A DNA stretch of 45,248 nt, from contig NZ_RHOG01000020.1 of assembly GCF_003946405.1 (NCBI RefSeq), forward strand, positions 1-45,248, in the 5' to 3' direction. Positions 5,700-38,968 of the stretch are shown piece after piece. Below the pieces are notes generated by a model, which worked only from the letters and a program-made list of their open reading frames with translations, was not told the origin of the DNA and did not search any database. The stretch comes from Lacticaseibacillus yichunensis. Lineage in GTDB: Bacteria; Bacillota; Bacilli; Lactobacillales; Lactobacillaceae. Numbering within the stretch: position 1 is the first letter of the stretch; every line of letters begins with the position of its first letter. Position numbers and translations under genes: made by a program.

Positions 5700-5846
5700 C
5701 ATCCCGCGGGCCTCCGCACCCTTCAGTTGGGCTTCGGCCCGCATGACGGGGACATCTAACTGTCTCGTGCACTTGATGGCTGAGTGCGCCATCAAGCACC
5801 CGAGCCAAGTTAGTTGCCCCGTCATCCCGCGGGCCTCCGCACCCTT
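5700..5846 (+). repeat. Structured intergenic repeat family S, site A (one unit)
   Basis: A 24-nt direct repeat (5700-5723 and 5823-5846, beginning CATCCCGCGGGCC) brackets one unit with a period of 123 nt. Inside, ATGACGGGG pairs with CCCCGTCAT. Then come CTAACT/AGTTAG, CTCG/CGAG and TTGATGGC/GCCATCAA, with the apical loop TGAGTGC. The upstream flank can also form GCGGGCC/GGCCCGC. The same architecture with different stem sequences occurs at 13777-13988 and 38687-38968. It lies upstream of the cdaA -10, so it is probably not part of the cdaA transcript. Confidence 0.85.
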
Positions 5847-5878
5847 TCTCAGACCCGCGCGCCCCCGCCCCTTGCTCG

Positions 5879-5887
5879 TGGTATAAT
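5879..5887 (+). promoter_or_regulatory. Extended -10 promoter of cdaA-cdaR-glmM
   Basis: TGGTATAAT is a perfect TATAAT with the extended TGn motif, 31 nt before the cdaA start. No good -35 is seen, which is usual for extended -10 promoters. Confidence 0.65.
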
Positions 5888-5917
5888 TAATTGCAAATCG
5901 GAAATGGAGGAGTTGAC

Positions 5918-6760
5918 ATGCAGACTTTTTTGTCTGGCTTGTTGCGCTGGTCCACGGTGGCCAACACGATCGATATCCTCGTGGTATGGTTTCTCGCTTA
6001 TCGGTTGATCATGCTGGTGCGCGGGACGAAAGCGGTCCAGTTGTTCAAGGGCGTCTTTGTCGTTGCGGCGATCAAGATTGTTTCCTGGTATCTGCAACTG
6101 CGGACGCTGGGCTGGATCACGGATCTGATCATCACGTGGTCGGTGCCGGTCTTGGTCATCATTTTTCAACCGGAGATCCGGCGCGGGCTTGAGCATCTCG
6201 GCCGCGGCTCGATCATGCCATGGAACAAGCCTAATGAGCACGAGATCGAAGTGCGCCTCGTCAAGGAGTTGGACAAGGCGATTCAATATATGAGCCGACG
6301 TCGAATCGGTGCCTTGATCACCATTCAGCAAAAGACTGGGCTTGAGGATTACATCGAAACAGGGATTCCAATCGATGCCGATGTGTCTGGGGAGCTGTTG
6401 ATCAACATCTTCATTCCCAACACCCCGTTGCACGATGGGGCGGTGATCATTCGGGATAATCGCATCGCAGTCGCAGCCGCCTATTTACCGCTGTCGGAAA
6501 GCAATCTGATTCCCAAAGAGCTTGGAACCCGGCATCGCGCCGCGGTCGGGATAAGTGAGGTGACCGACGCTTTGACAATCGTGATCTCAGAGGAGACCGG
6601 CGGCGTGACAATCACGACGAACAATAATTTGATTCGTGATCTGACGCGTGAAGATTATCTCAAGCTTTTGACTGCCCAATTGGTGCCTGCGGATGAAGCA
6701 AAGCAGAGCCGCTTTGCGGAAATTTTCGCCGGCCTCACGCATAAAGGGGGGTCGAAGTGA
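5918..6760 (+). CDS. cdaA: Diadenylate cyclase CdaA
   Basis: A 280-residue membrane enzyme that makes the second messenger c-di-AMP from two ATP. Three hydrophobic helices fill roughly residues 10-80. The DAC domain follows, with the catalytic Asp173-Gly-Ala (HDGAVII) and Arg205-His-Arg (GTRHRAAVG) motifs. The ATG at 5918 has GGAGGAG 5 nt before it and gives the family N-terminus; an in-frame TTG at 5891 lies over the promoter and is rejected. The stop overlaps the start of cdaR. This is the conserved cdaA-cdaR-glmM arrangement that ties c-di-AMP to cell-wall precursor synthesis. Confidence 0.97.
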   Translation: MQTFLSGLLRWSTVANTIDILVVWFLAYRLIMLVRGTKAVQLFKGVFVVAAIKIVSWYLQLRTLGWITDLIITWSVPVLVIIFQPEIRRGLEHLGRGSIMPWNKPNEHEIEVRLVKELDKAIQYMSRRRIGALITIQQKTGLEDYIETGIPIDADVSGELLINIFIPNTPLHDGAVIIRDNRIAVAAAYLPLSESNLIPKELGTRHRAAVGISEVTDALTIVISEETGGVTITTNNNLIRDLTREDYLKLLTAQLVPADEAKQSRFAEIFAGLTHKGGSK

Positions 6761-7791
6761 TGCATTTTGATAAATTATGGGAAAGCAAATGGTTTTACCG
6801 CATCTTGGCGTTGCTTTTGGCGATCGGGTTATTTGCCTATGTCAATGCGGAAAATCTGAACAACACGCGGCAAAACCGCACCAACAACACAGCCATCACC
6901 GCCACGACCACCCGCACGTTGAAAGTCCCGCTTCAGCTGAACGCCAACACGGATAAGTATTTCATCACCGGGTATCCTGACAAGGTATCAGTTACGCTGT
7001 CAGGCAGTGCCAGCCTGGTCACGGTGACGGCCAACACGATGAATTTTCGCGTGATCGCGGAACTCGGTGGCCTTGGCGTTGGGACGCACACGGTGAAGCT
7101 CAAGGAAGACGGGCTGAACAAGGATCTGACCTACTCGATCAAACCGGAAACGGTGAAGATCAAGATTCAGGATCGCAAATCGCTGCAACTGCCGATTCAG
7201 GTCAAGTACAACAAGGACAGTCTCGCCCCGGATTATGAAGCGGGGACCCCGAGCCTGTCCACTGTCACAGCCGAGGCGACCGGCGGCAAGGGCGAGATCG
7301 ACCGGATCTATCAAGTCGTCGCGAACATTGTGATGGCGCGCAACACGAAGGCCGATGTGTCGCAGCAAGTCTTGCTTCAGGCGCTGGATGAAAAAGGCAA
7401 CACCGTCAATGTTGTGCTGTCGCCGGAAACGGTGACGGTGAAGTTGCCTGTCTCGCTGCCGAGCAAAAAAGTCCCAGTGACGCTGAAGCAGACAGGGACC
7501 GTTAACGACTCGCTCGTCTACGCGCTGACGACTAGCACCAAAAACGTGACGGTTTACGGTGCCAATGCCGTCCTCAACAAGATCGACTCGCTTGAAGTGC
7601 CAGTCGATGTTTCCGGAATCACCGAAAATACCACCAAAACGCTCGACTTGAGTGGGGTGGATACGAAGCTCAATAAAGTGTCGCCTGCGTCGCTCAAGGT
7701 GACGATCAGCGTCGCCAAGTCGGCTGCCAGCTCGAGTTCAAGCTCAAGCGCCGAGCGCGCCAGCAGTAGCTCCTCCTCCGATAATGACTGA
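6760..7791 (+). CDS. cdaR: CdaA regulatory protein CdaR (YbbR-domain)
   Basis: A 343-residue protein with one N-terminal membrane helix (about residues 12-29) and an extracellular part made of several YbbR repeats. In the family it binds CdaA and modulates its activity. The start ATG at 6760 overlaps the cdaA stop (GTGATG), with AAAGGGGGG before it. An alternative GTG lies one codon upstream. The C-terminus is a low-complexity Ser-rich tail (two Ser runs around an AERA segment) ending in acidic residues, probably disordered. It lies 24 nt upstream of glmM in one operon. Confidence 0.95.
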   Translation: MHFDKLWESKWFYRILALLLAIGLFAYVNAENLNNTRQNRTNNTAITATTTRTLKVPLQLNANTDKYFITGYPDKVSVTLSGSASLVTVTANTMNFRVIAELGGLGVGTHTVKLKEDGLNKDLTYSIKPETVKIKIQDRKSLQLPIQVKYNKDSLAPDYEAGTPSLSTVTAEATGGKGEIDRIYQVVANIVMARNTKADVSQQVLLQALDEKGNTVNVVLSPETVTVKLPVSLPSKKVPVTLKQTGTVNDSLVYALTTSTKNVTVYGANAVLNKIDSLEVPVDVSGITENTTKTLDLSGVDTKLNKVSPASLKVTISVAKSAASSSSSSSAERASSSSSSDND

Positions 7792-7815
7792 GAAAAATGA
7801 AATGAGGCAAAGATC

Positions 7816-9177
7816 ATGACAAAGTATTTTGGAACCGATGGTGTGCGCGGAATCGCGAATAAGGAATTGAGCCCGGAAATGGCTTTTCGCCTGGGCCGCT
7901 GCGGTGGGTATGTTCTGACCCAGCACACACAGGATCCAAATAAGCGCCCATTAGTCCTTGTCGCGCGGGATACCCGTGCGTCCGGCCAGATGTTAGCCGA
8001 TGCGCTGATCTCCGGCCTGCTGTCGGTCGGCATCGAGGTATTGTCGCTTGGGGTGATCACGACCCCGGCCGTGGCCTATTTGATCAAGGTGCAAAGTGCC
8101 GATGCCGGCATTCAGATCTCTGCATCCCATAATCCGGCTGCCGACAACGGCATCAAGTTTTTCGGCCCGGATGGCTATAAGCTGTCTGATGAGACCGAAG
8201 AGGAAATTGAAGCGTTGCTGGACGCGCCGGAAGACACGCTCCCACGGCCAGCTGCAGAAGGCCTTGGCACCGTTTCGGAGTATCCGGAGGGGTCGCTGAA
8301 ATACCTCCAGTTTTTGGAACAGACCATCAGCGATGATCTGTCAGGTATCCATGTGGCCGTCGATGCGGCAAACGGCGCGACCAGTGGCCTTGTCTCCCGC
8401 CTGTTTGCGGATGTTGAGACAAATTTTGACACCATGGCGACGCATCCGGATGGGCTGAACATCAACAAGAACGTTGGCTCGACGCATCCTGAGGCGCTTG
8501 CCAAACTGGTGGTGGACAAAGGCGCACAAGCTGGGTTGGCATTTGACGGCGATGGTGATCGCTGCATCGCGGTCGACGAGCTGGGCCAGATCGTTGATGG
8601 CGACAAGATCATGTATATCATCGCCGCGGACATGAAGCGCCAGGGCCGGCTCAAGCAGGATACGATCGTGACGACCGTAATGAGCAATCTCGGCTTGTAC
8701 AAGGCCATGTCAGCGGCAGAAATGAAGTCCGTCCAGACCGCAGTCGGTGACCGTCACGTCTCCGATGAGATGCGCGCGCACGGCTACAATATCGGCGGCG
8801 AGCAGTCCGGCCATGTGATCTTGTTTGATTATCACAACACGGGCGATGGCATGCTGACAGGGCTTCAATTGCTAGCCATCATGAAGCGGACGGGTAAAAA
8901 ATTGTCCGAGCTTGCGGCGCCGGTGCAGACCTACCCGCAAAAGTTGGTCAATGTTCCGGTGTCTGACAAAAACAATTGGCAGGCTTACCCCGCGATTCAA
9001 GACGCCATCGACGCCGTTGAAGCGGAGATGGGTGATGACGGGCGCGTTCTCGTGCGCCCAAGCGGGACCGAACCGTTGTTGCGCGTGATGGCCGAGGCGA
9101 AAACTGAGCCGCTGGTCAATACTTACGTGGATCGCATTGTGGCCGTTGTCGAGGAGCAGATGGGCGCAGCAGAATAA
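7816..9177 (+). CDS. glmM: Phosphoglucosamine mutase GlmM
   Basis: A 453-residue alpha-D-phosphohexomutase that converts glucosamine-6-phosphate to glucosamine-1-phosphate on the way to UDP-GlcNAc. The active phosphoserine motif SASHNP (Ser104), the metal loop DGDGDR and the C-terminal phosphate-binding RPSGTEP are all present. Length is normal for the family. It is the last gene of the cdaA-cdaR-glmM operon. CdaA and GlmM are reported to interact in other Firmicutes. Confidence 0.97.
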
Positions 9178-9276
9178 CGGGTTGCCCGTTTTCGCGCCAT
9201 GCTACGAGCTGTAGCTTGGCCAATTCGGCGCAGAAGCGTTGAGCGGTAGCGCACCAATCAGTTGATCGATAAGAGG
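9178..9276 (+). other. Structured 3' region of glmM, function unknown
   Basis: Between the glmM stop and its terminator lie about 100 nt with clear inverted repeats, for example GCTAC/GTAGC around GAGCT nested in GCGCC/GGCGC (about 9195-9232). A further GCG-rich stem follows near 9235-9262. I compared it with the glmS ribozyme by eye and did not find its conserved core. It may be a 3' stabilising fold. Confidence 0.4.
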
Positions 9277-9314
9277 AGATGCCCTTTCCGGAGACGGAGC
9301 GGGCATCTTTTTTT
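9277..9314 (+). terminator. Intrinsic terminator after glmM
   Basis: AGATGCCC and GGGCATCT form an 8-bp stem followed by a run of T. Confidence 0.9.
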
Positions 9315-9320
9315 AAACCG

Positions 9321-9351
9321 ACCTATACCAATATTGTTAAAAATACCTATA
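9321..9351. promoter_or_regulatory. Possible NagR-type operator upstream of glmS
   Basis: ACCTATACCAAT (9321-9332) and a second ACCTATA (9345-9351) lie just upstream of the glmS -35. On the minus strand the first reads ATTGGTATAGGT. That resembles one arm of the NagR/GamR (GntR family) operator ATTGGTATAGACCAAT known from amino-sugar genes. The second arm is poor, so this is only a candidate. Confidence 0.35.
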
Positions 9352-9367
9352 TCAGTTTTAAAAAACG

Positions 9368-9396
9368 TTGACTTTATGTGACCACGGAAATACAGT
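9368..9396 (+). promoter_or_regulatory. glmS promoter
   Basis: TTGACT and TACAGT are separated by 17 nt, a good housekeeping promoter, 75 nt before the glmS start. Confidence 0.7.
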
Positions 9397-9421
9397 AGAC
9401 AATGTTAAATCAAAAACCAAT

Positions 9422-9449
9422 ACGAGATTTTTGCCTGTGCCAATCTCGT
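9422..9449 (+). promoter_or_regulatory. Hairpin in the glmS leader
   Basis: ACGAGATT and AATCTCGT pair perfectly (8 bp, 12-nt loop) in the 5' leader, just upstream of the AAAAGGA ribosome binding site. It could affect stability or translation of glmS; nothing links it to a known riboswitch. Confidence 0.5.
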
Positions 9450-9471
9450 TAAAAGAAAAGGATGTTGTCTC

Positions 9472-11280
9472 ATGTGTGGAATCGTCGGTGTGATCGGGCG
9501 CGAAGATGCGCCGCAAGTCTTACTGCAAGGACTGCAAAAACTGGAATATCGCGGCTATGACTCGGCCGGTATCTATACGGCCGGTGCCGGATCTGCGCGG
9601 TTGGTGAAGGCCGTGGGTAAGATCGCGGCGCTGACTGAGGCAATCGGCCCCGATGTGACAGGGACGATGGGCATCGGTCACACCCGGTGGGCCACAAATG
9701 GCAAGCCGACTGAAGCCAATGCGCACCCCCATGTTTCTGCGGACGGCCGTTTTTATCTGGTCCACAATGGCGTGATCACCAATTCGGCGGCGTTGCGCGC
9801 GACTTATTTGAGTGACGTCAGCTTCGCAAGCGAAACGGATACAGAGGTGGTCGTCCAGCTGATCGCCTTTTTTGCCAAAAGCGGGCTGACAGCGCATGCC
9901 GCGTTTGTCAAAACACTTCGCTTGCTGGAAGGCTCGTATGCATTTTGCCTGGCCGATCGCGATGATTCTGACGTGTTGTACGCCGCGAAAAATAAGAGCC
10001 CACTGCTGATCGGCAAGGGGGCCGGGTTCAACCTGGTCGCCTCCGATGCACTGGCCATGATCGAGCTGACGGACCAATTCCTTGAGCTCAATGATGGGGA
10101 AGTGGTGACGCTCACGGCTTCGCAGGTTCAGATCGAGAATTTGACGGGTCAACAGATCGAGCGTGCGCCGATCACCGTGACGATCGATGCGGCCGAGGCT
10201 GATAAGGGTCCCTATCCGTTTTACATGCTGAAGGAGATCAATGAGCAGCCAATCGTGATGCGGCGCCTGCTTGCAGCCTACACAAAGGCAGATGGGCAAG
10301 TTGAGATGCCTGCAGCGCTTTTGACGGCACTGGCGCAAGCGGATCGGCTGTATATCGTGGCGGCAGGGACCAGTTATCACGCTGGACTGATTGGCAAGCC
10401 GCTTTTTGAAAGTCTCGCGAATGTCCCCGTCGAAGTTCACTTGGCCAGCGAGTTTGGCTATCATTTGCCATTATTGTCTGCCCACCCGCTGTTTATTTTT
10501 CTCACGCAAAGTGGTGAGACGGCCGATATTCGCGAGGTGTTGGTCAAGGTGAAAAAAATGGGCGCGCCGACCCTGACGATCACCAATGTCGTGACTTCCA
10601 CATTAGCCCGTGAGGCGGATCATGTGCTCGCGCTTCACGCCGGCCCTGAGATCGCGGTTGCCTCCACGAAGGCATACACGGCGCAGGTCGCGGTGGAGGC
10701 ATTGTTGGCAAAAGCGCTCGGCGAGTTCAAAGGGACCGAGGCAGCCATCAAGTTTGAGGTGGCGCACTGGTTAAGCTTGGCCGCCGCCGGTCAGCATACT
10801 TTGATCGATCAGCAGGCCCGCATTCATGAGCTAGCCACCACGCTTTTTGCCGGCCAGGACCGCGCGTTTTATATCGGCCGCGGCAGTGATCATGCGGTGA
10901 GCCTTGAAGCGGCACTGAAGCTCAAGGAGATCTCGTATGTGCACGCGGAGGGATTTGCGGCAGGCGAGCTGAAGCATGGGACGATCGCGCTGATCGAGCC
11001 GGACACACCAACCGTTGCGTTTGTGACGGATCCATTGACGGCTGCTCGCACGCGCAGCAACGCCGAAGAGGTCGCGGCGCGCGGGGGCCACGTGGCAATC
11101 ATTGCGACCAGTGACCTGGCTGAAGCAGGCGATGACCTGGTCGTCCCGGCGATCGAGCCACGCCTGACGCCCTTGATCGCGATCGTGGCGGGCCAGTTGC
11201 TGGCGTATTTTACCAGTTTGGATCGCGGGTATGACGTTGACCGGCCACGGAATTTAGCAAAATCGGTCACTGTGGAATAA
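9472..11280 (+). CDS. glmS: Glutamine-fructose-6-phosphate aminotransferase GlmS
   Basis: A 602-residue enzyme that makes glucosamine-6-phosphate from fructose-6-phosphate and glutamine, the first committed step of amino-sugar synthesis and the step before GlmM. The N-terminal glutaminase domain starts MCGIVGVIG with the catalytic Cys after Met removal. The C-terminal part has two SIS domains (TQSGETADI, STKAYTAQ) and the conserved tail DRPRNLAKSVTVE. It has its own promoter and is separated from glmM by a terminator. Confidence 0.98.
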   Translation: MCGIVGVIGREDAPQVLLQGLQKLEYRGYDSAGIYTAGAGSARLVKAVGKIAALTEAIGPDVTGTMGIGHTRWATNGKPTEANAHPHVSADGRFYLVHNGVITNSAALRATYLSDVSFASETDTEVVVQLIAFFAKSGLTAHAAFVKTLRLLEGSYAFCLADRDDSDVLYAAKNKSPLLIGKGAGFNLVASDALAMIELTDQFLELNDGEVVTLTASQVQIENLTGQQIERAPITVTIDAAEADKGPYPFYMLKEINEQPIVMRRLLAAYTKADGQVEMPAALLTALAQADRLYIVAAGTSYHAGLIGKPLFESLANVPVEVHLASEFGYHLPLLSAHPLFIFLTQSGETADIREVLVKVKKMGAPTLTITNVVTSTLAREADHVLALHAGPEIAVASTKAYTAQVAVEALLAKALGEFKGTEAAIKFEVAHWLSLAAAGQHTLIDQQARIHELATTLFAGQDRAFYIGRGSDHAVSLEAALKLKEISYVHAEGFAAGELKHGTIALIEPDTPTVAFVTDPLTAARTRSNAEEVAARGGHVAIIATSDLAEAGDDLVVPAIEPRLTPLIAIVAGQLLAYFTSLDRGYDVDRPRNLAKSVTVE

Positions 11281-11327
11281 GTTGATTGTCGGATTTTGAG
11301 CGAATGCGCACGCCGATCTATGGATAA

Positions 11328-11365
11328 AAAATCGCCACCGAGATTTTTGCCTCGGTGGCGATTTT
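11328..11365. terminator. Bidirectional terminator between glmS and pepF
   Basis: AAAATCGCCACCGAG and its perfect 15-nt complement flank an 8-nt loop. A and T runs at both ends serve the convergent genes glmS (plus) and pepF (minus). Confidence 0.92.
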
Positions 11366-11381
11366 ATTTTGGGTCAATGGG

Positions 11382-13184
11382 TTATAGATAGCGTTGCGAC
11401 AGGTCGATAAAGGTCTGCGCGTCTTTTGCGGCCAGGTCGATGCCTTGCTGCCAAAAGTCCGGTTTCGTGAGATCGACGCCGAGGTGTTTTTTCGCCAACG
11501 TTTCGGTGTCCATATTCGCGGTGTCCTTGAGTAGCGCGATATAATCATCTTCGAAATTGCTGCCGCTTTGCTGGGCCTTGGCGTAAATACCGCTGGAGAA
11601 GAGGTAGCCAAAGGTATAAGGAAAGTTGTAAAACGGCACATCGTCGATGAAAAAGTGGAGCTTATCAGCCCAGAACATCGGGTCGAAATCGGCCAGACCA
11701 CCTGCATAGGCGGTCTCTTGCGCCTGCGTCATCAACGTACGCAGTTGGTCGACCGTGACGGTGCCTTGTTGCCGGGCATCATAGAAGCTGCGTTCAAAAA
11801 GATAACGCGCATGGATGTTCAGCAGCATGGCCAACGGATTGCTCATTTTGGCATCCAGCAAATTGAGCTTTTCTTCTGGGGAAGTGGCGGCTTTGACCGT
11901 GGCGTCCGCAACGATCAGCTCGGCAAATGTGGACGCTGTTTCTGCGACGTTCATGGCGTAATCCCGGCGCATGCTCGGCATGTCTTTGAGCAGGCTCGAG
12001 TGGAACGCGTGCCCCAGTTCATGCGCGATCGTGGAGACGCCCGCGGCTGAGCCGTCAAAAGTCATGAAGATCCGGGCCTCTTTGACATCCGGCACAGAGG
12101 TCATGTAACCGCCTGGCCGCTTGCCTGGCCGATCTTCGGCTTCGATCCACGCGTGGTCAAAAGCGTATTCCGCAAAATCGGCCATTTTCTGGGAGAACTT
12201 GGCGAAGTTTGCGATAATAAATTCAGCGGCCTCGTCGAACGTGTAGACCTTTGGCGTGTAGTCGCCGACCGTCACTGGCGCCCACTGATCATGCCAAGTC
12301 ATTTGCGAGCGGCCCATCAGCTTGGCTTTTTGGTCGAGGTAGGCAACAAACGGCTTTTTATTTGCCGAAACAGTCGCCCACATTTGGTCGAGGGTGGCCT
12401 GGCTCATGCGATTGAGTTGCAATGGCTTGTGCATGTAGTCGGTGATGCCATGCAGGCGGTTATTCGTCAGACGAAAACCGGCCAGATGATTAAGCGTATC
12501 CGCAAATGGAGCAGCGTGCTGCGACCAGGTCGTTTCCCAGCTATCGAAAACAGTCTCACGGACTTTCGGGTCAGGGTCCGACTCAAAGCGATTTTGCGCC
12601 TGGCCAGCTGACAAAGAAAGCTGCTCGCCGTCGATGGTGACCGGAAAATGGAGATCGGCGCTCAATGTATCGTAGTGACTGCTCCAGCCATTGAAACCGT
12701 CCAGGGCAAGCTGGCTGATCATCGCCTCACTTTGATCGTCGAGTAACTCTTTGCCTTGGGTCCGCAGTTCGCGGAGGCCAAACGCGACAGTATCCAGCCC
12801 GGGCGTCGCAATGAGCGTTGAAAATGTCGCATCATCCAGCGAGGTCAGTTTTTTGATCAACGGCAGGGTGATTTGCTGCAACTGTGTGCCCAGCACCTGG
12901 ACCTGGTTCAACACAACGCCGGCCTGCTGATTGCTGGTGTCGGCACTAAGGGACATATTTGCAAAAGTGGCGATCGTGGCCAGGCCATTTTCGACATCCT
13001 CTTGCAGGCTGAGAATCGCCTTGGCCTGTGAAAAATCATTGTCGCTTGCCGCGTCCCAGTTGTTAATAGCTTGCTTTAGGGTCGGCATCTTCGCTTCGCA
13101 ATCTGCCATCCGGGCCTTCAGCTGTGGGGATGTGATGCCACCGGGAAAGATCGAATCGAGATTCCAGTTGATCGAATACTTCAT
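11382..13184 (-). CDS. pepF: Oligoendopeptidase F
   Basis: A 600-residue cytoplasmic zinc metallopeptidase (M3 family) that cleaves oligopeptides. The zinc motif HELGH has His388, Glu389 and His392, and the conserved GGY loop lies upstream of it (RPGGYMTS). Length is typical. The ATG at 13184 follows a GGAGG ribosome binding site. It is monocistronic and convergent with glmS. Confidence 0.96.
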   Translation of the reverse strand: MKYSINWNLDSIFPGGITSPQLKARMADCEAKMPTLKQAINNWDAASDNDFSQAKAILSLQEDVENGLATIATFANMSLSADTSNQQAGVVLNQVQVLGTQLQQITLPLIKKLTSLDDATFSTLIATPGLDTVAFGLRELRTQGKELLDDQSEAMISQLALDGFNGWSSHYDTLSADLHFPVTIDGEQLSLSAGQAQNRFESDPDPKVRETVFDSWETTWSQHAAPFADTLNHLAGFRLTNNRLHGITDYMHKPLQLNRMSQATLDQMWATVSANKKPFVAYLDQKAKLMGRSQMTWHDQWAPVTVGDYTPKVYTFDEAAEFIIANFAKFSQKMADFAEYAFDHAWIEAEDRPGKRPGGYMTSVPDVKEARIFMTFDGSAAGVSTIAHELGHAFHSSLLKDMPSMRRDYAMNVAETASTFAELIVADATVKAATSPEEKLNLLDAKMSNPLAMLLNIHARYLFERSFYDARQQGTVTVDQLRTLMTQAQETAYAGGLADFDPMFWADKLHFFIDDVPFYNFPYTFGYLFSSGIYAKAQQSGSNFEDDYIALLKDTANMDTETLAKKHLGVDLTKPDFWQQGIDLAAKDAQTFIDLSQRYL

Positions 13185-13776: not shown

Positions 13777-13988
13777 CGATCAGCGTGGACGCCTTTGGCT
13801 AAGTGCGCCAGCCGCACCCAAGCCAGCCTAGCCGCTCAGACCTAGGCGCTCGGCTTCGCACCTTGTAACTGGGCTCCGCGCGGCAGGTCTGAGACATCTA
13901 GTCGGCCCGGTCACGTATGGCTAAGTGCGCCATTCGCGTCCAGGCCGAACTAGCTGCTCAGACCTAGGCGCTCGGCTTCGCACCTTGT
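13777..13988 (+). repeat. Structured intergenic repeat family S, site B (one full and one partial unit)
   Basis: A 33-nt direct repeat (13834-13866 and 13956-13988, beginning GCTCAGACC) has a period of 122 nt. The unit hairpin runs 13886-13964: GGTCTGAG/CTCAGACC, CTAGT/ACTAG, CGGCC/GGCCG, ATGGC/GCCAT, with apical loop TAAGTGC. Before it, 13777-13840 is a half unit with the same loop (TGGC/GCCA). The first flank copy (CTCAGACC at 13835-13842) can also pair with GGTCTGAG, giving two exclusive folds. It separates the VanZ gene from the yebC promoter. Confidence 0.88.
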
Positions 13989-23515: not shown

Positions 23516-23680
23516 ATTTGTGTATCTTTATGCATTGGCGACTCTTTGCACCCTGCGCCTTGTTGTGTCTACTTTGTGCCTACGAATTGCCACAGACACG
23601 GGTTCTACCAAAAACTAAAGCCTGAAAACACCGTCATACCGGTATTTATTAAAATACATTTGGCAGAAGAACCTCGAAAA

Positions 23681-24042
23681 TGGAGGTGAGGAGAATCGAA
23701 CTCCTGTCCATCAGCCCTGCTACACCCAGCTCTACACTCATAGTCGATTCATTTGAATTTCGCCAACGCGCCGCGCCAACCGGCTAGGCTAACGCGCGAG
23801 GGCTATCCTGAGAATCTCTTGCGGCTCCCTCAGGCGGCAGGAGACGCCGTAGCTCAATGATTTGAGACCTGACACCGCCGCTTGAGCGACAACGGGCAGA
23901 TCACGCTAAGCTGTTATTAAGCAGCCAGGGCGTAAGAATTTTCGTTTTTTGCAGTTAAATTAACTGTTTCCGTTGATGACGGAGCCGAGCCTCCGGAGTG
24001 CACTACATGCGCGAAGACCAATGTCGAGACCATTACACCCCC
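23681..24042 (-). ncRNA. ssrA: tmRNA (ssrA)
   Basis: A transfer-messenger RNA that rescues stalled ribosomes. The 5' end GGGGGTG pairs with CACCTCC at the 3' end to form the acceptor stem, and the T arm GGAGTTCGATTCTCC is intact. The tag frame at 23952-23917 reads AKNENSYALAA then TAA, the Lactobacillaceae pattern. After the CACCTCC and discriminator A no full CCA is encoded, so the tail is presumably added by CCA transferase. The start is placed from the acceptor pairing. Confidence 0.97.
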
Positions 24043-30373: not shown

Positions 30374-30389
30374 GCGCGGCGCAAAAAGC

Positions 30390-30568
30390 GGAAGTGGGAC
30401 AAATGGCGTTTTTGGGTCCGACAGGTAAGTGTTCCAAGCGCTAGGTTCGAACTTTGGACCAGGTGATTGGGACCTTAGCTGCTCGGACCCGGACATTTGG
30501 CCCACGACACTGCTGTAACATTAGTGCACCAAAAAGGACCCGGGAAACTTTTGTCCCGGGTCCTTTTT
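30390..30568 (+). repeat. Intergenic structured repeat family R, copy 2, with terminator
   Basis: This copy is full length without the insertion seen in copy 1. The arms GTGGGACAAATG/CATTTGGCCCAC and GGGTCCGA/TCGGACCC are intact, and CACTGCTGTAACATTAGTG forms the next hairpin. It ends in a near-perfect symmetrical hairpin (AAAAAGGACCCGGGA with TCCCGGGTCCTTTTT, 30531-30568), which terminates both the ACT gene (plus) and the RpiR gene (minus). Confidence 0.9.
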
Positions 30569-31450: not shown

Positions 31451-31596
31451 CCTATCTCCAATCTGGCCGAAATGTTCAACCACGTTGTTTTTCCAATCGA
31501 AAGGCTGGTCGGTTTCGGTCTAAGTGGCAGCGCGTTCGCCGTCAAAGCAAAGAACTTGTTACACTGAGTATAACCCTACATGGAGGTCTTCACATC

Positions 31597-32634: not shown

Positions 32635-32635
32635 T

Positions 32636-33613
32636 ATGAAGCTTGCGATTCTTGGCGCAGGGAAGATCGTACATGATTTTTTGCCGATGGTGCAGGCACT
32701 GCCGGCAATCGAGGTCGCGGCCATTTGCGGGTTACCACAAGATGCACCGGAAATGACGCGCCTGGCTGATCAGTTTCCGATCGGGCATGTCTATACTGAT
32801 ATCAATGAGGGACTTGCAGATCCGGCTGTCGACACGGTGTATGTTGCGTTGCCCAATTCGCTTCATTTTCGTTTCGCCAAATTGGCACTCGAGGCTGGCA
32901 AAAATGTGATCTGCGAAAAGCCGTTCACGCTGCACTTGGCAGAGCTTGAGACCTTGAAAGACATCGCCGCGGCGAAAGGGGTCTTGTTGCTTGAGGCAAT
33001 CACCAATCAGTATCTGACTAATTATCAGCAGATCAAGGCGGATCTGCCTAAGCTCGGCGACATCAAGATCGTGTCGTGTAACTATTCGCAGTATTCCTCA
33101 CGCTATGATGCGTTTAAAGAGGGAACGGTGCTGCCAGTCTTTGACCCTAAACTGGGCGGCGGGGCCCTGATGGACTTGAACATTTACAATATCCATTTTG
33201 TGGTAGGCCTACTGGGTAAGCCGGTGGCGGTGCATTATTTTGCCAATATCGACCGTGGCGTGGATACGTCGGGTATTTTGACACTGACTTATCCGACCTG
33301 CCAGGCGCTGTGCATCGCCGCCAAGGATTGTGCGGCGCCGGTGACGTCCAGCATTCAAGGCGATGCGGGGTCCATCATTGTTGAAGGGCCGACCAATACC
33401 GTTGAGCGCTTCGACGAGACCCTCAATGGCCAGCCAAGCATCCAGGTAGATCGGCGTGTGTCGGATCACCGAATGTTCCAAGAGTTCGATAATTTTGAGC
33501 GCATCATTCGCTTGGCGGATCACGCGGAAGCGGACCAGCGGATGGCACACAGTGAGGCTGTGATGCAGGTGGTAGATGCGGCACTCAATGATGCGGGCAT
33601 CACGCTGGGCTAA
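32636..33613 (+). CDS. Gfo/Idh/MocA-family oxidoreductase 2
   Basis: A 325-residue paralogue with Rossmann motif ILGAGKIVHDF and EKPFTLHLAEL. The ATG at 32636 is supported by GAAGGTAAG; the open frame upstream lies inside the first gene. The two enzymes differ clearly in sequence and may act in successive steps or as a pair. They are divergent from an RpiR regulator. Confidence 0.9.
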   Translation: MKLAILGAGKIVHDFLPMVQALPAIEVAAICGLPQDAPEMTRLADQFPIGHVYTDINEGLADPAVDTVYVALPNSLHFRFAKLALEAGKNVICEKPFTLHLAELETLKDIAAAKGVLLLEAITNQYLTNYQQIKADLPKLGDIKIVSCNYSQYSSRYDAFKEGTVLPVFDPKLGGGALMDLNIYNIHFVVGLLGKPVAVHYFANIDRGVDTSGILTLTYPTCQALCIAAKDCAAPVTSSIQGDAGSIIVEGPTNTVERFDETLNGQPSIQVDRRVSDHRMFQEFDNFERIIRLADHAEADQRMAHSEAVMQVVDAALNDAGITLG

Positions 33614-33636
33614 CAAACGTCTTTATAAATGAGAAA

Positions 33637-33674
33637 AATAGGGCGCTGATCGTTACTGCGATTGGAGCCCTATT
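33637..33674 (+). terminator. Hairpin after the oxidoreductases
   Basis: AATAGGGC and GCCCTATT form an 8-bp stem with a 22-nt loop and an AT-rich tail rather than a clean T-run. A terminator is likely but not certain. Confidence 0.5.
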
Positions 33675-33740
33675 AATATTTAGTTGCAATCTTGGTGAGA
33701 AGATGATAATTTGATTAAATAAATTGCTTGTGGGGAAGTG

Positions 33741-34250
33741 ATGGACATGACGCGTCCAGTAAAGGTGGCGGCGTTGTTCTTGCTCGGGCTGTTGATCATC
33801 TTGCCGGCTTTGGCGCTGACAACGGCGATCGTGGCACTCAGTTTAATGGTGACTGGCCTAGCTGCGGCTGGCATCGCGAGCGGGCTGTTGGTCGCGGTCA
33901 GTGGGACATTGGCCGGTGCTCTACTTGTGGCGGCCGGGATGCTGCTCGGGCTCCAGTTTATCCATTTTCACCAAGGAGAACTGAATTATGTCGTGGCCGG
34001 GGTGCGCCATCACCCGCCTGTCTGCATCGATCTGTCGGGGCGCACGATCTGCCGCCATATTTGGGCAAAGGAGCGCCTTTTTCATTCGCAAGGGGAGCAT
34101 TTATTCGCTGCGATCGAGCACAGCATTGAGACCTATTTTGCCGTCGATCTCCGGGATTACTTGCTCCATCAGGCCACCGATCAACACGGGGTGGCCGTTG
34201 TCGAGGTCATGGTCCTTGCAGACGAAGAAGATTTTCACTTTTCACTTTAG
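33741..34250 (+). CDS. Membrane protein of unknown function
   Basis: A 169-residue protein whose first 80 residues form two long hydrophobic, alanine- and leucine-rich helices. The soluble part contains several His and Cys (VRHHPPVCIDLSGRTICRHI) and ends in an acidic stretch. I do not recognise a family. A GTG one codon upstream is an alternative start; GGGGAAG lies before both. It sits alone between the oxidoreductases and repeat R copy 3. Confidence 0.65.
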   Translation: MDMTRPVKVAALFLLGLLIILPALALTTAIVALSLMVTGLAAAGIASGLLVAVSGTLAGALLVAAGMLLGLQFIHFHQGELNYVVAGVRHHPPVCIDLSGRTICRHIWAKERLFHSQGEHLFAAIEHSIETYFAVDLRDYLLHQATDQHGVAVVEVMVLADEEDFHFSL

Positions 34251-34257
34251 GTAGGAT

Positions 34258-34436
34258 GGAAGTGGGACAAATGTCGTTCTTGGGTCCGACAGGTAAGTGT
34301 TCCAAGCGCCGGGTCCGAACTTTGGGCCAGGTGATTGGAGCCTTAGCTGCTCGGACCCGGACATTTGGCCCACGACACTGCAGTCACATTAGTGCACTAT
34401 ACTGGAACTGGGAAAGTTTTGTCCCAGTTCCTTTTC
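34258..34436 (+). repeat. Intergenic structured repeat family R, copy 3, with terminator
   Basis: Third copy, in the same orientation as the others and directly after the 33741 gene. Pairing arms are conserved. The final hairpin has changed sequence but keeps pairing (GGAACTGGGA/TCCCAGTTCC) and ends in TTTT, so it terminates the upstream gene. Confidence 0.9.
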
Positions 34437-34493
34437 GCGCTCCGCCAATCTGTGAGGGCGCGCTCGATTTTGGCCTCAAAACCACAGGAGCCG

Positions 34494-34814
34494 TTATTCT
34501 CCGGATTCTTTCTTCTTTTCGATCAAATGCCAGGTGCTGGGCCAACGCATGCCGGTAAAGCCGGTGTATTCGATGGAAAACTGGAAGTGCTGGCCCAGCG
34601 CAGTAATTACCTGCTCGAGTTCGCTGAGGTCGCCGGTGGCACTGTGCAGTGGGGTGGACTTCAGCCGGTGGCCGAGGGCTTGCTGATTGAAAAAGAAGTT
34701 GATGGCGTGGTCATAAGGGTCGTTGGCGACCAGTAGCCAGTAACGGGTATTCCGGCGTTGCGCAAAAAGTGGCTGAATTCGGGCGACGATCAAATCAACA
34801 TCTCGGCGATCCAT
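34494..34814 (-). CDS. Small protein cotranscribed with the Y-family polymerase
   Basis: A 106-residue soluble protein (MDRRDVDLIVARIQPLFAQR) with no domain I recognise. Its ribosome binding site (GAAGG) overlaps the polymerase stop codon and its ATG is 11 nt downstream, so it is almost certainly translated from the same LexA-controlled message. A role in DNA damage tolerance is inferred from context only. Confidence 0.75.
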   Translation of the reverse strand: MDRRDVDLIVARIQPLFAQRRNTRYWLLVANDPYDHAINFFFNQQALGHRLKSTPLHSATGDLSELEQVITALGQHFQFSIEYTGFTGMRWPSTWHLIEKKKESGE

Positions 34815-34825
34815 TGGTAAGCCTT

Positions 34826-36127
34826 CTATTCATAACTGTTGCCGCCGTTGTGGCCCCCGACCAGACTGGCGCGCTGAATCGCGGTGCCACCGCGTAACTT
34901 GGATTTTGCATAAACGAGGGCGGTGAAGCCAAACCGCTCGCGAATCTGATCCACGGTGCGGGCGAGATCTGTGCGGTGGAGTTGTGATGGCAATGGCTCA
35001 AATAAGTCGAGTTGCTCGCCTGTATCGGGACTTAAGCGCCCGGTGTAAACCGCGATATTTCGGATGACTTGGCCTTCCCAGCGCGCGCGAAAAAGTTGAA
35101 GCAGTGCCGCATTGATCGCGTCGTTGCGGTTGGTCGGGGCGATTCGCATACTGCCATTAAAGCCGCCGCGGCCATCTTCTTCGCTGGCCGCGTAGGAAAA
35201 ACCGATGCCTAAACTGAGACTGCCAGCTTGTTTGTGGTGATGCCGCAGCCTGGCCGCCACCTGTTCGCCGATTTCTTTGATCACCAGTTCGATCTCGCTT
35301 TGCAAGGCATAATCGCGCGGCAGGACCTGGGAATTGCCGATACTGGCTGAACGGGTCGGTACGCGCTGCGAAAGCTTGCTGCGGTCGATGCCCCAGCTGA
35401 GCGCAAACAGCTGGGTGCCGATGATGCCAAGTTCCTGTTTAAGGAGATACGGATCGGCATGGGCGAGCTCGTCCATATCGTGAATGTCGAGTTTGTTCAA
35501 GTGACGCGCGGTGCGATCGGCGATGCCCCACACATCGGTCAAGTTGGTGATCGACCAGATCTTTTCCGGCACGGTACGATAGGTGATCTCGCCAATCAGA
35601 TTCGGCGTGTGCTTGGCGTAGACATCCAGCGCGATTTTTGCCTGCACCGGATTTTCACCGATGCCGACGGTGGTGTATAGACCGAGCTCTCGCCGAACGG
35701 TGCGCTGGATCTTCTCGGCAACGGCGCGCGGGGAGTCGCCAAAAAGCTGCCAACTTTTGGTCAGATCTAGCAGCGATTCGTCGATTGAGTAAGGCCATAA
35801 GTCTTCATCGGCGACGAAACGGCGAAAAATATCATTGATCTGCAGGTTGCGCTTGATGTACAGATTCATGCGCGGGGGCACGACCCACAGATGCGCCTCA
35901 TCCGGTAAGTCGCGTTGCCGCGAGACGTTGGCTTTCAGGCCATACAGGCGCTTGGCTTCAGGTGAGGTGGCCAAGATCAAGCCGCCATTGGTGTTGGCTT
36001 GCTCTGACATCACGACAAGAATCGACTTTAGGGGATTGAGCCCACGCATCACACTTTCAACCGAGGCATAAAAGGACTTGTTGTCGATCATGAAGACAAC
36101 GCGCCGCGGTTCTTTTTCATAGACCAT
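34826..36127 (-). CDS. Y-family DNA polymerase, UmuC/UvrX type
   Basis: A 433-residue translesion polymerase. The palm motif MIDNKSFYASVES and catalytic YSIDESLLD are present, as are a helix-hairpin-helix-like segment (LTDVWGIADRTARHLNKLDI) and the little-finger domain. QLDLFEP near the C-terminus is a candidate beta-clamp-binding motif. The ATG at 36127 follows GAGGTGATTCGG. The promoter holds a LexA box. Confidence 0.93.
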   Translation of the reverse strand: MVYEKEPRRVVFMIDNKSFYASVESVMRGLNPLKSILVVMSEQANTNGGLILATSPEAKRLYGLKANVSRQRDLPDEAHLWVVPPRMNLYIKRNLQINDIFRRFVADEDLWPYSIDESLLDLTKSWQLFGDSPRAVAEKIQRTVRRELGLYTTVGIGENPVQAKIALDVYAKHTPNLIGEITYRTVPEKIWSITNLTDVWGIADRTARHLNKLDIHDMDELAHADPYLLKQELGIIGTQLFALSWGIDRSKLSQRVPTRSASIGNSQVLPRDYALQSEIELVIKEIGEQVAARLRHHHKQAGSLSLGIGFSYAASEEDGRGGFNGSMRIAPTNRNDAINAALLQLFRARWEGQVIRNIAVYTGRLSPDTGEQLDLFEPLPSQLHRTDLARTVDQIRERFGFTALVYAKSKLRGGTAIQRASLVGGHNGGNSYE

Positions 36128-36145
36128 CCGAATCACCTCGTCATT

Positions 36146-36175
36146 ATTATACGAACGTGTGTTTGTTTTTGGCAA
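36146..36175 (-). promoter_or_regulatory. SOS promoter with LexA box
   Basis: On the minus strand TTGCCA and TATAAT are separated by 18 nt. The LexA/DinR box CGAACGTGTGTTTG (plus strand 36152-36165) fills the spacer and matches CGAACRNRYGTTYC at 13 of 14 positions. Confidence 0.88.
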
Positions 36176-36258
36176 GCAAAAAGTTTGTCGCTGTCATCGC
36201 GCGTCGACTGTCCCGCAAAGTGCTATACTCGACTGCAAACAATGAAACAGGTGACTCG

Positions 36259-37101
36259 ATGACAAAATTAACAGATACATATACGCTTGCAAATGGCGTC
36301 AAGATTCCGCAGGTCGGCTTTGGCACATGGCAGATTCCGGATGGTCCGATTGCTTATAAGGCTGTGGCAGATGCGCTGGCGGCTGGGTATCGCCACATTG
36401 ATACTGCGTGGCAATATAAAAATGAGGCCAGTGTCGGCAAAGCGGTGCGTGATTCCGGCATCGCCCGCGACGAGTTGTTTATCACGTCCAAATTACCGGC
36501 ACACGCAAAAAGCTATGAAGCGGCGAAAACGGCGATCGAGGAAAGTATGGCCAATCTCGGCCTTGATCAGCTCGATCTGTACCTGATCCACGCGCCATGG
36601 CCATGGAGTGACCTGGGCGGCGACTACCGCGAGGCAAATCGCGAGGTCTGGCGAGCGATGGAAGAGTTCTACCAAAGTGGGCGGGTCAAGGCGATCGGCA
36701 TCTCGAACTTCAATGCCCGTGATCAAAAGGATTTGTACGCCCATGCGACGATTCAGCCGATGGTCTTGCAGCTGCAATATTATATCGGCTTCACGGAAGC
36801 AGAAAACGTGCAGGCGGCTCAGGACAATGGCATGCTCGTCGAGGCGTTTTCACCACTTGCGACCGGCTTCTTACTGAACAACCCAGACGTGCAAAAAGTG
36901 GCTGCCGCACATGGTGTGTCAGTTGCCCAGGTGGCAATCAAATATGTCTTGCAACACGGCCTGTTGCCGCTTCCCAAGGCGACCGCGCCACAACACATCA
37001 GCCAAAATGCGCAGCTGGAGTTTGAGCTGACGCCAGCGGAAATGGCCTTTTTGGACACGTTGAAGGATACAGCCCCTGGCGAAGACGATAATCTGTATTG
37101 A
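36259..37101 (+). CDS. Aldo-keto reductase
   Basis: A 280-residue NADPH-dependent reductase of the AKR5-like group (2,5-diketogluconate reductase type). The catalytic tetrad is complete: Asp48, Tyr53, Lys78 and His111. The substrate is not predictable. The ATG at 36259 has AGGTGA before it, and TGCTATACT at 36219-36227 is a likely extended -10. It is divergent from the polymerase. Confidence 0.93.
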   Translation: MTKLTDTYTLANGVKIPQVGFGTWQIPDGPIAYKAVADALAAGYRHIDTAWQYKNEASVGKAVRDSGIARDELFITSKLPAHAKSYEAAKTAIEESMANLGLDQLDLYLIHAPWPWSDLGGDYREANREVWRAMEEFYQSGRVKAIGISNFNARDQKDLYAHATIQPMVLQLQYYIGFTEAENVQAAQDNGMLVEAFSPLATGFLLNNPDVQKVAAAHGVSVAQVAIKYVLQHGLLPLPKATAPQHISQNAQLEFELTPAEMAFLDTLKDTAPGEDDNLY

Positions 37102-37110
37102 TCTAGGCAC

Positions 37111-37161
37111 GCAAAAAGCGGGCGGTGCTTGTCGATGAGGACAGGCACTGCCCGCTTTTGC
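37111..37161. terminator. Bidirectional terminator
   Basis: AAAAGCGGGC and GCCCGCTTTT with inner TGTC/GACA pair around GATGAG. It serves the convergent reductase (plus) and the 37166 gene (minus). Confidence 0.92.
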
Positions 37162-37165
37162 GCGC

Positions 37166-37753
37166 TTAAGATAATTTGGCGTTTGGCATGCTGGCATCGT
37201 GCAACAGGTCCGGCGGCGTTTGAAAACTCGTCTGCGGATTGGCAGCAATCAGCGCCGCATCGGTGGTCAACATCAAGAGGCGGGCGGTGCTGTGGGCCAG
37301 GGCGGCTTCGGCACAGGCCAAAAACAGGCGGCGCTCCTGTGGATCCATGCTAGCCGGCAGATCGCGCATCAACAGATATTGGCGGCCAGCCAGTAGCCCG
37401 CGAAACAGCTGGATGTACAGACTTTGCTGATCCGTCAGCGCTGAGGCCTGCTGATCCAAAAAGTCGCTGTCTCTGCGCAAATTTTCAGGGAGAATGTCAA
37501 ATGGCAAGCTTTCCCCATTGATGAGCAGGTTGCCGCGCACCGTCAGATACGGGACCAAACCGGCATCCGGCAAGGTGATCGTCGCGAGAAGCTTGCTAGC
37601 GCCGTTTGCGATGAACGTCTGGCCATACCGGCGAAAAGTCTCATCACGCACGTCGTCACTGGGCTGCTGAAGGTAATAAAGATGTGAAGGGGCAAACAGT
37701 GCGTCAAGCCGGGTCGCAAAGGCTTGGGCGGCGCGAACATGAAAGATCTGCAT
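37166..37753 (-). CDS. Degenerate ABC-transporter ATPase-like protein
   Basis: A 195-residue protein whose C-terminal half (about 105-165) follows the ABC ATPase pattern with its catalytic residues replaced. LTDQQ stands for LSGGQ, LLMRDLPASMDP for LLLDEPTSALDP (Walker B Asp to Arg, Glu to Asp), and LLMLTTD for the His switch. IANGASKLLATIT near residue 48 recalls a broken Walker A without its GKS/T. The frame is intact with a normal start, so this looks like a maintained pseudo-ATPase. It lies 16 nt downstream of an FtsX-like permease. Homology is judged by eye. Confidence 0.6.
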   Translation of the reverse strand: MQIFHVRAAQAFATRLDALFAPSHLYYLQQPSDDVRDETFRRYGQTFIANGASKLLATITLPDAGLVPYLTVRGNLLINGESLPFDILPENLRRDSDFLDQQASALTDQQSLYIQLFRGLLAGRQYLLMRDLPASMDPQERRLFLACAEAALAHSTARLLMLTTDAALIAANPQTSFQTPPDLLHDASMPNAKLS

Positions 37754-37769
37754 GAAAAGACTCCTTTCG

Positions 37770-38522
37770 TCAATGATGAAGCATTCTGCGCTTGGTCGCG
37801 GTGATCGCCGTGAGAAAAACGCTGCCTTGGCCGATCAGCATGGTCGCTAACCCCGCCAAATAGGTGGGTAGCATGCCGACAATGCCTGCCTCCATGGGGC
37901 GCGGGCCGCGATGGGGGAAAATCAGTCCCTGATCATTGAATTCGGTCAGGCGGTTTGCAAATAGTTTTTTTGTGATCGTGCGCAAGTCTTCGGAAGCGCC
38001 GCTTTTGGTGAGCTGTGTGTCGAACCAATGCCGGTTGAGGTCGTTGATCCAGCTGGCCGCCGTGTCGCCGAACAAGGTGGCAAGTAGCCATAACAGCACA
38101 TAGACGCCAGTGAAGACCAGCACGTTTTCAAGCAAATATTGGGCCGTGATATCCCCGGCGTTTTTGCCGACCATCAGATACGCGGTGGTCTCTTGCCGGC
38201 GAAAATGGGCGAACAATAGGGCAAAAATGATCCACACCAGCAAGCTGACGAGAACGCCGATCCACCAAGTCAGCTGAAGACGCTGGCCAACAGTGGCGTA
38301 CGTCTTTTCGACCTGGTCGATCAGCTTGGCGGCGCCAGATAAGGCGGACTTATCAAATTGCCCCAGTCGCCCCTTAAAGGCGGCAAGTGCCCCGCGGTTG
38401 GCGGCCTGAAAGGTGAGCAGAAAAAGGCTGAGGATGGTAAACACCAGCGTCCACACCGCGGTGGCGATGTAGGCTCGGCGATGATAGTTCAGCGCCTTGA
38501 GCGCCCGTTCGAGAAAACGCAT
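37770..38522 (-). CDS. Small FtsX/MacB-like permease
   Basis: A 250-residue protein with four membrane helices (about 16-38, 84-106, 130-148, 215-238) and an exterior loop after helix 1. The cytoplasmic RRQETTAYLMVGKNAGDITAQY after helix 2 matches the coupling region of FtsX/MacB permeases. It is shorter than most MacB permeases and close to FtsX in size. The only ATPase next to it is the degenerate protein at 37166. The start is the ATG at 38522, after AGGTGAAAG. Confidence 0.7.
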   Translation of the reverse strand: MRFLERALKALNYHRRAYIATAVWTLVFTILSLFLLTFQAANRGALAAFKGRLGQFDKSALSGAAKLIDQVEKTYATVGQRLQLTWWIGVLVSLLVWIIFALLFAHFRRQETTAYLMVGKNAGDITAQYLLENVLVFTGVYVLLWLLATLFGDTAASWINDLNRHWFDTQLTKSGASEDLRTITKKLFANRLTEFNDQGLIFPHRGPRPMEAGIVGMLPTYLAGLATMLIGQGSVFLTAITATKRRMLHH

Positions 38523-38612
38523 GCTTTCACCTCACCTTAATGACACCAGTATAGCGGCGGGGTGTGAACAAATTATGAATTTGACGGGAATAATTGCACT
38601 GGAAATAACGAA

Positions 38613-38650
38613 AAGACCCAGGACAAAAGGTTGGTTTTGTCCTGGGTCTT
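38613..38650. terminator. Bidirectional terminator-like hairpin
   Basis: A perfect 16-bp stem (AAGACCCAGGACAAAA and its complement) with loop GGTTGG. On the minus strand it ends in TTTTC and would end the ltaS transcript after the family S repeats. Confidence 0.88.
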
Positions 38651-38686
38651 CTCGATAAATTTAGGTCGGATGGGCGACGGCGGGTC

Positions 38687-38968
38687 GCTACTCGACCATC
38701 CCGCGGGCCGTCGCACCCTGTCTTAGTCAGGCTCCGCGGGGCAGGGGTGGGACATCTAGTCGTCCCGGTCGCCCGATGGCAAAGAGCGCCATCAAACGCC
38801 CAGGCCGCACTAGCTGCCCACCCCTGGGCGCCCCACTTCGCACCGTAGATGGGCTCAGGCCCGCATGGTCGAGGTATCCAGCTGTCTCGTGCACTCGAGG
38901 CGAAGTGCGCCTCAAGCACCCGAGCCAAGCTAGCTACTCGACCATCCCGCGGGCCGTCGCACCCTGTC
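38687..38968 (+). repeat. Structured intergenic repeat family S, site C (two tandem units)
   Basis: A 36-nt direct repeat (38687-38722 and 38933-38968, beginning GCTACTCGACC) is 246 nt apart, two periods. A diverged middle flank starts at 38813. Unit 1 pairs GGGGTGGG/CCCACCCC, CTAGT/ACTAG and GATGGC/GCCATC with loop AAAGAGC. Unit 2 pairs ATGGTCGAG/CTCGACCAT, CTCG/CGAG and GAGGC/GCCTC with loop GAAGTGC. The last bases overlap the ltaS stop codon. In the ltaS transcript it would appear as the complement. Confidence 0.88.

Follow-up and report, generated by a model that had tools for sequence, protein, structure and literature searches.

On which molecule does selection act when the stems of a repeated hairpin change sequence from copy to copy while their pairing is kept? 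The question is raised by three intergenic sites, here called A, B and C, in a 45,248-nt stretch of the Lacticaseibacillus yichunensis genome (contig NZ_RHOG01000020.1, positions 1 to 45,248; hereafter the window). Large-scale compensatory change is usually taken as proof of a functional RNA. We find that the three sites belong to a real family of covarying repeats, undescribed as far as Rfam and the open-licence literature show, whose units are united by one shared imperfect hairpin with a T·C mismatch and a 7-nt loop. At a probability of roughly one half, we read the family as a non-autonomous mobile DNA repeat with a lifestyle like that of repetitive extragenic palindromic (REP) sequences or miniature inverted-repeat transposable elements (MITEs), the unit being a single imperfect hairpin of ~120 nt. 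Since sister species carry different repeats at corresponding places and the stems do not favour wobble pairs, selection may have acted on the folded DNA itself.

The repeat unit and its copies

The window contains four complete units of 119–122 nt at sites A, B and C, all on the plus strand, and every array at these sites opens with a truncated unit of which the 3′ part remains. A preliminary description of this DNA had proposed a modular structured repeat here, and all of the motifs it named were recovered, including the alternative pairs GATGGC/GCCATC and GAGGC/GCCTC and the four pairs of outer-stem arms: ATGACGGGG/CCCCGTCAT in A, GGTCTGAG/CTCAGACC in B, GGGGTGGG/CCCACCCC in C1 and ATGGTCGAG/CTCGACCAT in C2. 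The modular repeat of ~120 nt stands, but its left flank copy belongs to the 3′ part of the truncated unit, so that the arrays amount to ~1.2 (A), ~1.6 (B) and ~2.3 (C) units. Likewise, the motif described as a conserved flank (GCGGGCC or GCTCGGC) is present but is not a conserved flank; it is a further covarying stem, S1, which encloses the outer stem, S2.

A unit is built in the order AGTTGGGCTNCG, S1, S2, a CATCTA-type inner stem, further stems, the 7-nt loop, the closing arms and CNCGCACCCT, and starts with AGTTGGG or AGTCGGG. S1 and S2 occur in many versions with the opposite arm nearly always matching; in unit B the S1 arms are unmatched (GCGCGGC against GCTCGGC). The set of 195 distinct units comes from two species, L. 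yichunensis and Lacticaseibacillus mingshuiensis (199 found, 96 and 103, respectively), and its commonest loops are GAAGTGC, CAAGTGC and TAAGTGC. Alignment column 63 is C in all 195 units, column 58 is A in 176 and column 60 is G in 169. The T31·C90 mismatch is kept in 170 units and is pairable in 16, and the unpaired column 28 is variable (A 121, G 52, T 15, C 7).

The L. yichunensis genome (2.56 Mb in 73 contigs) gives 81 BLAST matches to unit A. The window and 39 fetched matching stretches together hold 45 arrays with 106 profile matches and 96 complete units. Covariance-model searches add at least 15 sites beyond those stretches (for example C11:11560, C7:31636 and C23:98115), and the genome total exceeds what is listed, as these searches scored the best 60 and the best 14 candidates. 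The four window units score 97–139 bits with our first model, R1, and 99–119 bits with a broader one, R2; the training units of R1 include these four, so the scores themselves are no test; the test comes from the units used for comparison and from the counts of covariation.

Covariation of the stems

Covariation was assessed with shuffles, with controls in which partners were slid, and with mutual information under the average product correction (APC). Over 36 pairs in 90 L. yichunensis units, 94.2% of cells are paired, compared to 78.6% in shuffles and 34–40% with partners slid by 1–3 columns. Both sides have changed in 29 of the 36 pairs, giving 528 double-changed cells against 175 in shuffles. 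In the 195 units, the 18 strongest APC-corrected couplings among column pairs at least four apart all fall on nested pairs of a single hairpin; 17 of them are within the 36-pair list, and the remaining one, 43/77, extends a listed helix and is paired in 78% of units. The 18 variable paired columns reach a median normalised mutual information of 0.72, whereas the median for the 39 adjacent unpaired columns is 0.14; coupling therefore tracks pairing, not distance. A wider alignment of 73 distinct rows from several species (A2), which was fitted to the model and is hence biased towards it, shows 92.2% of cells paired versus 61.5%, with 33 of the 36 pairs double-changed. The slid controls and the coupling ranks are the stronger evidence, because kinship alone can push sequences above shuffles.

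Together with the 81 matches of unit A, these tests exclude chance. The pairing kept despite sequence change that had been proposed from four units is thus borne out in both alignments, as is the prediction of many covarying copies. Random inverted repeats would have shown no covariation, or would have varied as much outside the hairpin as within it; instead, covariation is strong, and the linker and loop are more conserved.

Folded DNA or RNA

A fold selected as RNA is expected to tolerate G·U above A·C. Of 7000 pair cells that we classified, 6614 hold a Watson–Crick pair, 98 hold G·T, 118 hold A·C and 170 hold some other combination. The difference between G·T and A·C has p 0.20, in a comparison made without a positive RNA control and counting cells, not independent events. 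The wobble pair does not exceed A·C in frequency, and this favours mobile folded DNA over RNA and, of the two options first proposed (RNA or extruded DNA), the DNA half. As DNA, the units fold better than shuffles with z values of −6.6 (A), −4.7 (B), −1.5 (C1) and −3.5 (C2); the gain of C1 is only modest, with 19 of 200 shuffles folding equally well. The corresponding RNA values are −6.7, −5.9, −2.7 and −4.0.

These RNA z values, from −2.7 to −6.7, and the persistence of the fold across the genus are what a structured RNA element under host selection would show, either as part of an mRNA 5′ or 3′ region or as a small RNA, with the array having a regulatory or stabilising role. The gene context of the 45 L. 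yichunensis arrays, assigned with a rough gene caller, is co-directional for 14, divergent for 11, convergent for 9, opposite for 4 and undecided for 7. The excess of 14 over 4 in gene sense and the copies inside operons also speak for an RNA, but divergent and convergent placements are common, and the spread of contexts does not suggest one transcript role. In addition to the lack of G·T excess, hairpin content and number at one and the same gene vary between close relatives, and the scanned Lacticaseibacillus units have no Rfam family. We therefore regard an RNA element as unlikely, though deserving of weight.

Turnover between sister species

The closest named record that we found is L. mingshuiensis 117-1 (G021), with 92.0% identity over 17 kb. 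We compared 23 orthologous places in the two genomes, at which the 700-bp flanks are 85–99.7% identical, mostly 91–98%. Thirteen of the places come from G021 stretches that were fetched because they hold units, and shared occupation there is a product of that choice. The other ten (A, B and eight identified via synteny) were unselected; L. mingshuiensis has complete units at eight and a remnant at two. Sister species thus have arrays at shared intergenic positions but differ in how many units and which hairpins these arrays contain. The number of complete units is equal at 7 of the 23 arrays, in a comparison that leaves out units with deletions and in which L027 reaches the contig end in G021. 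For the 45 units at places where G021 retains at least one complete unit, the best identity within the orthologous array is bimodal: 22 at 0.90 or above, 21 below 0.80 and two between. The best overall match is in the orthologous array for 16 units, elsewhere in the fetched part of G021 for 26 and tied for 3; this split overstates replacement, as there are more candidates elsewhere, and the bimodal identities are the better evidence.

At site A the same flanks enclose a unit of a different type in L. mingshuiensis; at site B the ends are alike and the inner stems different. The counterpart of L041 is a fragment only, and that of L030 is a scar in which GGGCTCCG is followed directly by CACCC. 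From its sequence, the scar fits a hairpin loss that would have occurred between short CTCCG repeats at the hairpin base. In general, where a hairpin is missing in this way, the scar lies between short direct repeats of the form CTNCG. To the left of the L. mingshuiensis array L078 are several hundred bases with no equivalent at the orthologous place, L018, in L. yichunensis.

Differences of the same kind are seen on plasmids. Unit A gave no match in a plasmid search, whereas an L. paracasei-type unit pair (L138 of genome G005) matched 15 plasmid records, nine from Pediococcus and six from Lacticaseibacillus, and no record in a phage search. In one phosphotransferase system (PTS) operon, two L. 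paracasei plasmids with near-identical flanks have different hairpins in the same place (L159 and L160), and a Pediococcus inopinatus plasmid has the hairpin of the first. Two of the four listed L. plantarum plasmids were examined at this operon; both are without the hairpin and keep its first bases. A second place in L. paracasei plasmids is occupied by one complete unit (L161), by a middle-deleted remnant and two units (L163), or, in the three plasmids examined of six listed with a shorter match (L166, L167 and L170), by a middle-deleted unit only.

Array growth and a possible mechanism

The 101 inner spacers measure 0–6 nt with one exception of 24 nt, a range that argues against a transposase making duplications of constant length. 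The spacer repeats right-flank bases for at least 3 nt in 26 of 83 arrays, compared to a mean of 5.4 and a maximum of 13 in 2000 shuffles; these 26 cases are not independent, since the copy extends into an adjacent remnant in L033 and one L022 array, and perhaps in L070, and some are orthologous pairs. In L071, the start of the right flank, GGTC, is found on each extra unit. The match to the right flank is thus above chance but variable in length, and a target-site duplication of fixed length is not supported by the inner spacers. Flank-copying spacers would arise if replication slipped or the template was switched at the CACCCT end, and likewise from a short staggered insertion. By a simple motif test, 65 of 96 arrays start with a 3′ fragment, a pattern in the sequences that may suggest retro-copying. 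Some array left ends are common to both species and hence look old (L011/L095).

For a mobile DNA repeat, the selected structure would be folded DNA that arises at strand separation, and pairing would persist because well-folded units are those that are copied or kept. The conserved linkers (CNCGCACCCT-spacer-AGTTGGGCTNCG) could be where hairpins are exchanged or added, through template switching or through recombination, perhaps aided by fork stalling. If this is true, the repeats offer a testable system in food bacteria for the copying, exchange and loss of folded single-stranded DNA, and account for many unannotated intergenic repeats in lactobacilli among the records examined. They would also alert RNA-discovery pipelines to what may be a class of false positives.

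Hairpin exchange and loss would also be expected of quasi-palindromes that have no function and are kept paired by arm-to-arm templated repair and ectopic gene conversion; the same is true of the change of type in a truncated unit that is unable to fold (L011 versus L095). However, templated repair should remove the T31·C90 mismatch, yet 170 of 195 units retain it; nor should such repair preserve the A-rich loop with its conserved letters at columns 58, 60 and 63. A lack of function is accordingly quite unlikely in our estimate.

Several points weigh against a mobile DNA repeat, besides the limits given above for the wobble count and the best-match split. Co-directional arrays follow the direction of the gene 14 times against 4, a possible hint of a transcript role. 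Some units sit within operons, as between the PTS IIB and IIC genes of plasmids, where transcription probably runs through them. Plain replication slippage could cause both the growth and the loss of arrays. No mobilising enzyme was found, PF01797 being the only family searched for. Finally, the arrays show no strand bias with respect to replication, and the leading strand carries 45 of 79 and 20 of 34 sites in a test that used 88 of the 150 matches in G027 and 34 of the 138 in G005 and assumed the terminus to lie opposite the origin, with dnaA at position 331. This gives no support to single-strand transposition of the IS200/IS605 type.

Candidate mobilising enzymes

Like REP sequences and REPINs, the units are high-copy intergenic imperfect palindromes, and the L. 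yichunensis genome has two PF01797 (Y1 transposase) genes. Movement by a resident Y1 enzyme of the REP-associated tyrosine transposase (RAYT) or IS200 kind would fit these facts. The distribution of the enzyme does not agree with this: PF01797 is present in 13 of the 30 genus genomes and absent from 13 genomes that have R1 matches, and the PF01797-negative genomes G001, G006, G011 and G014 have at least 47–60 R1 matches each. One of the two own genes (L049) is part of an IS605 pair, in which a Y1_Tnp protein of 150 aa adjoins an OrfB_IS605 protein of 384 aa. The R1 search placed no unit inside L048 or L049. There is no conserved GTAG before the hairpin. With the absence of replication-strand bias, these results led us to reject a resident Y1/RAYT mobiliser, and we consider REP/REPIN elements of that kind very improbable. 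An array lies ~2 kb from L049 on contig C24.

Distribution across genomes

The preliminary description had called for covariance models and for searches in this genome and its relatives. R1 detects units in 25 of the 60 genomes searched, and all 25 are among the 30 Lacticaseibacillus genomes in the sample. R2 at E ≤ 1e-5 matches 91 of 251 Lactobacillaceae genomes, 12 of them Lacticaseibacillus, in 19 of 40 genera. In an order-wide sample at E ≤ 1e-6, R2 matches 12 of 198 genomes, four from Lactobacillaceae and eight from outside, and at least 20 Lactobacillaceae genomes are without a match. In a phylum-wide sample it matches 4 of 299, including L. yichunensis itself; the other three are weak at 45–52 bits. 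These wider R2 searches scored the best 12–18 candidates per genome. Copy numbers with R1 are not comparable across species, G022 having 0 matches with R1 and 136 with R2.

The fold in other genera is alike: a short stem at the base is followed by S1, an asymmetric junction (3′ TAACC, TAAAC or similar), S2 and inner stems, and several of the units are tandem. Loops there are often of the AAAGNNC kind, with L206, L210, L211 and L212 deviating. Membership beyond Lactobacillaceae is a provisional assignment, made on few sequences judged by eye and by fold. One may speculate that a Bacilli-wide superfamily exists, in which folded-DNA cassettes would be written and exchanged at fixed arrays by dedicated machinery that reads nothing but the fold with its loop and mismatch; the linker would be an address recopied with each addition, in the manner of a CRISPR repeat, and the hairpins would be interchangeable inserts. 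We hold this to be doubtful. The CRISPR-like reading serves as an analogy only: the linker is constant and the inserts vary within an array, but the hairpins share one family.

Conserved loop letters and a conserved mismatch together with free stems could also mark binding sites or cruciforms read by a host chromosome-organising or repair protein. In line with this, diverged units are present at the place of site A, upstream of cdaA, in Lacticaseibacillus nasuensis (L060 9012–9134). On the other side, unit content and number at given places are unstable, and genomes of the genus differ in their listed R2 matches, from 34 in G020 to at least 136–150 in G022, G005 and G027 (among the best 150 candidates). 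We judge a host protein site improbable.

An Rfam scan of the window, three further L. yichunensis loci and 18 loci of relatives gave no gathering-level match on a unit, in agreement with the initial view that no named family applies. Among 12 more distant loci there is one T-box call (L210 1328–1765, 438 nt; 93.5 bits against a threshold of 93), which contains an R2 match on the opposite strand. A lysine riboswitch is located ~80 nt from a unit in L134 (1694–1869). In the open-licence literature, at the level of titles and abstract openings, we found no description of these repeats.

Comparison with known repeats

Integron attC sites also conserve structure above sequence and are exchangeable parts in arrays, with an invariant GTT/AAC core. 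In the Lacticaseibacillus units, by contrast, the paired core covaries (GTTAG, ACTAG, GCTAG, CCTAG) and there is no fixed GTT. REP, BIME and REPIN sequences are described as high-copy intergenic imperfect palindromes with irregular stems that form clusters and are proposed to be non-autonomous mobile DNA (PMC3116915, PMC8266576). The Lacticaseibacillus units share the high copy number, the intergenic location and the imperfect palindrome. They differ in length (~120 nt against the 29–37 nt given for Escherichia coli REPs), in their head-to-tail arrays, and in having neither GTAG nor a Y1 transposase that tracks them. MITEs are small, base-paired, intergenic and near-palindromic with short edge duplications, according to a definition quoted in PMC3049150; here the spacers are 0–6 nt but for one, no ends matching a transposon were observed at the two IS605-type loci (L048 and L049), the only ones checked, and the stems covary and are not conserved inverted repeats. 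The same source presents the BOX elements of Streptococcus pneumoniae as interspersed and modular, with variable tandem parts and a predicted stem-loop, and as thought to be parasitic (PMC3049150). Compared by description, BOX elements repeat boxB between boxA and boxC, whereas here the whole hairpin is tandem. In the accessible text of a 2008 survey of structured repeats in 40 bacterial genomes, Lactobacillus is named once, for the L. johnsonii family Lac-1 (PMC2267715). Lac-1 has 231 nt against ~120 nt for the present units, again by description only.

Features of the window

Coordinates are collected in Table 1. Consensus promoter scans at sites A and B did not recover the promoters placed by eye to the right of the arrays; at site C, the scan placed a promoter-like site to the left of the array and also returned a minus-strand terminator.

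Table 1. Positions of repeat features in the window, and of the two PF01797 genes on other contigs of the same genome
Feature	Position	Strand	Evidence or remark
Site A, 3′-end fragment of truncated unit and spacer	5700..5724	+	CATCCCGCGGGCCTCCGCACCCTTC, copy of the 3′ end of the next unit
Site A, complete hairpin unit	5725..5845	+	R1 138.8 bits, R2 118.8 bits; fold z −6.6 as DNA, −6.7 as RNA
Unit A, stem S1, 5′ arm	5736..5742	+	partner 5829–5835; alignment columns 12–18 with 105–111
Unit A, stem S2 (outer stem of the preliminary description), 5′ arm	5743..5751	+	partner 5817–5825; columns 19–27 with 93–101
Unit A, stem S3 including the T·C mismatch, 5′ arm	5753..5762	+	partner within 5806–5816; columns 29–38 with 82–92
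Unit A, apical loop TGAGTGC	5781..5787	+	sequence and loop counts
Site B, truncated unit (3′ part)	13788..13864	+	profile positions 44–119
Site B, complete unit with mismatched S1 arms	13867..13986	+	R1 97.4 bits
Site C, 3′-end fragment of truncated unit and spacer	38690..38724	+	CTCGACCATCCCGCGGGCCGTCGCACCCT, match to the 3′ end of C2
Site C, unit C1	38725..38846	+	R1 116.7 bits
Site C, unit C2	38847..38965	+	R1 123.3 bits
PF01797 gene (L049)	C24:20125–20499		PF01797 search
PF01797 gene (L048)	C3:3509–3883		PF01797 search

A second repeat (GGAAGTGGGACAAATG...) is found in the window at 30384–30545, 34258–34413 and 3697–3905, and has 23 matches in the L. yichunensis genome, including itself and fragments. 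With R2, its first two copies reach 65 and 62 bits, both on the minus strand, so that this second repeat may represent a distant branch of one superfamily with the hairpin units. A copy of it stands to the left of the array in L. mingshuiensis L091, and there is none at the L. yichunensis place, L031. The window also holds a transfer-messenger RNA (tmRNA) gene on the minus strand at 23678–24042 (Rfam RF00023).

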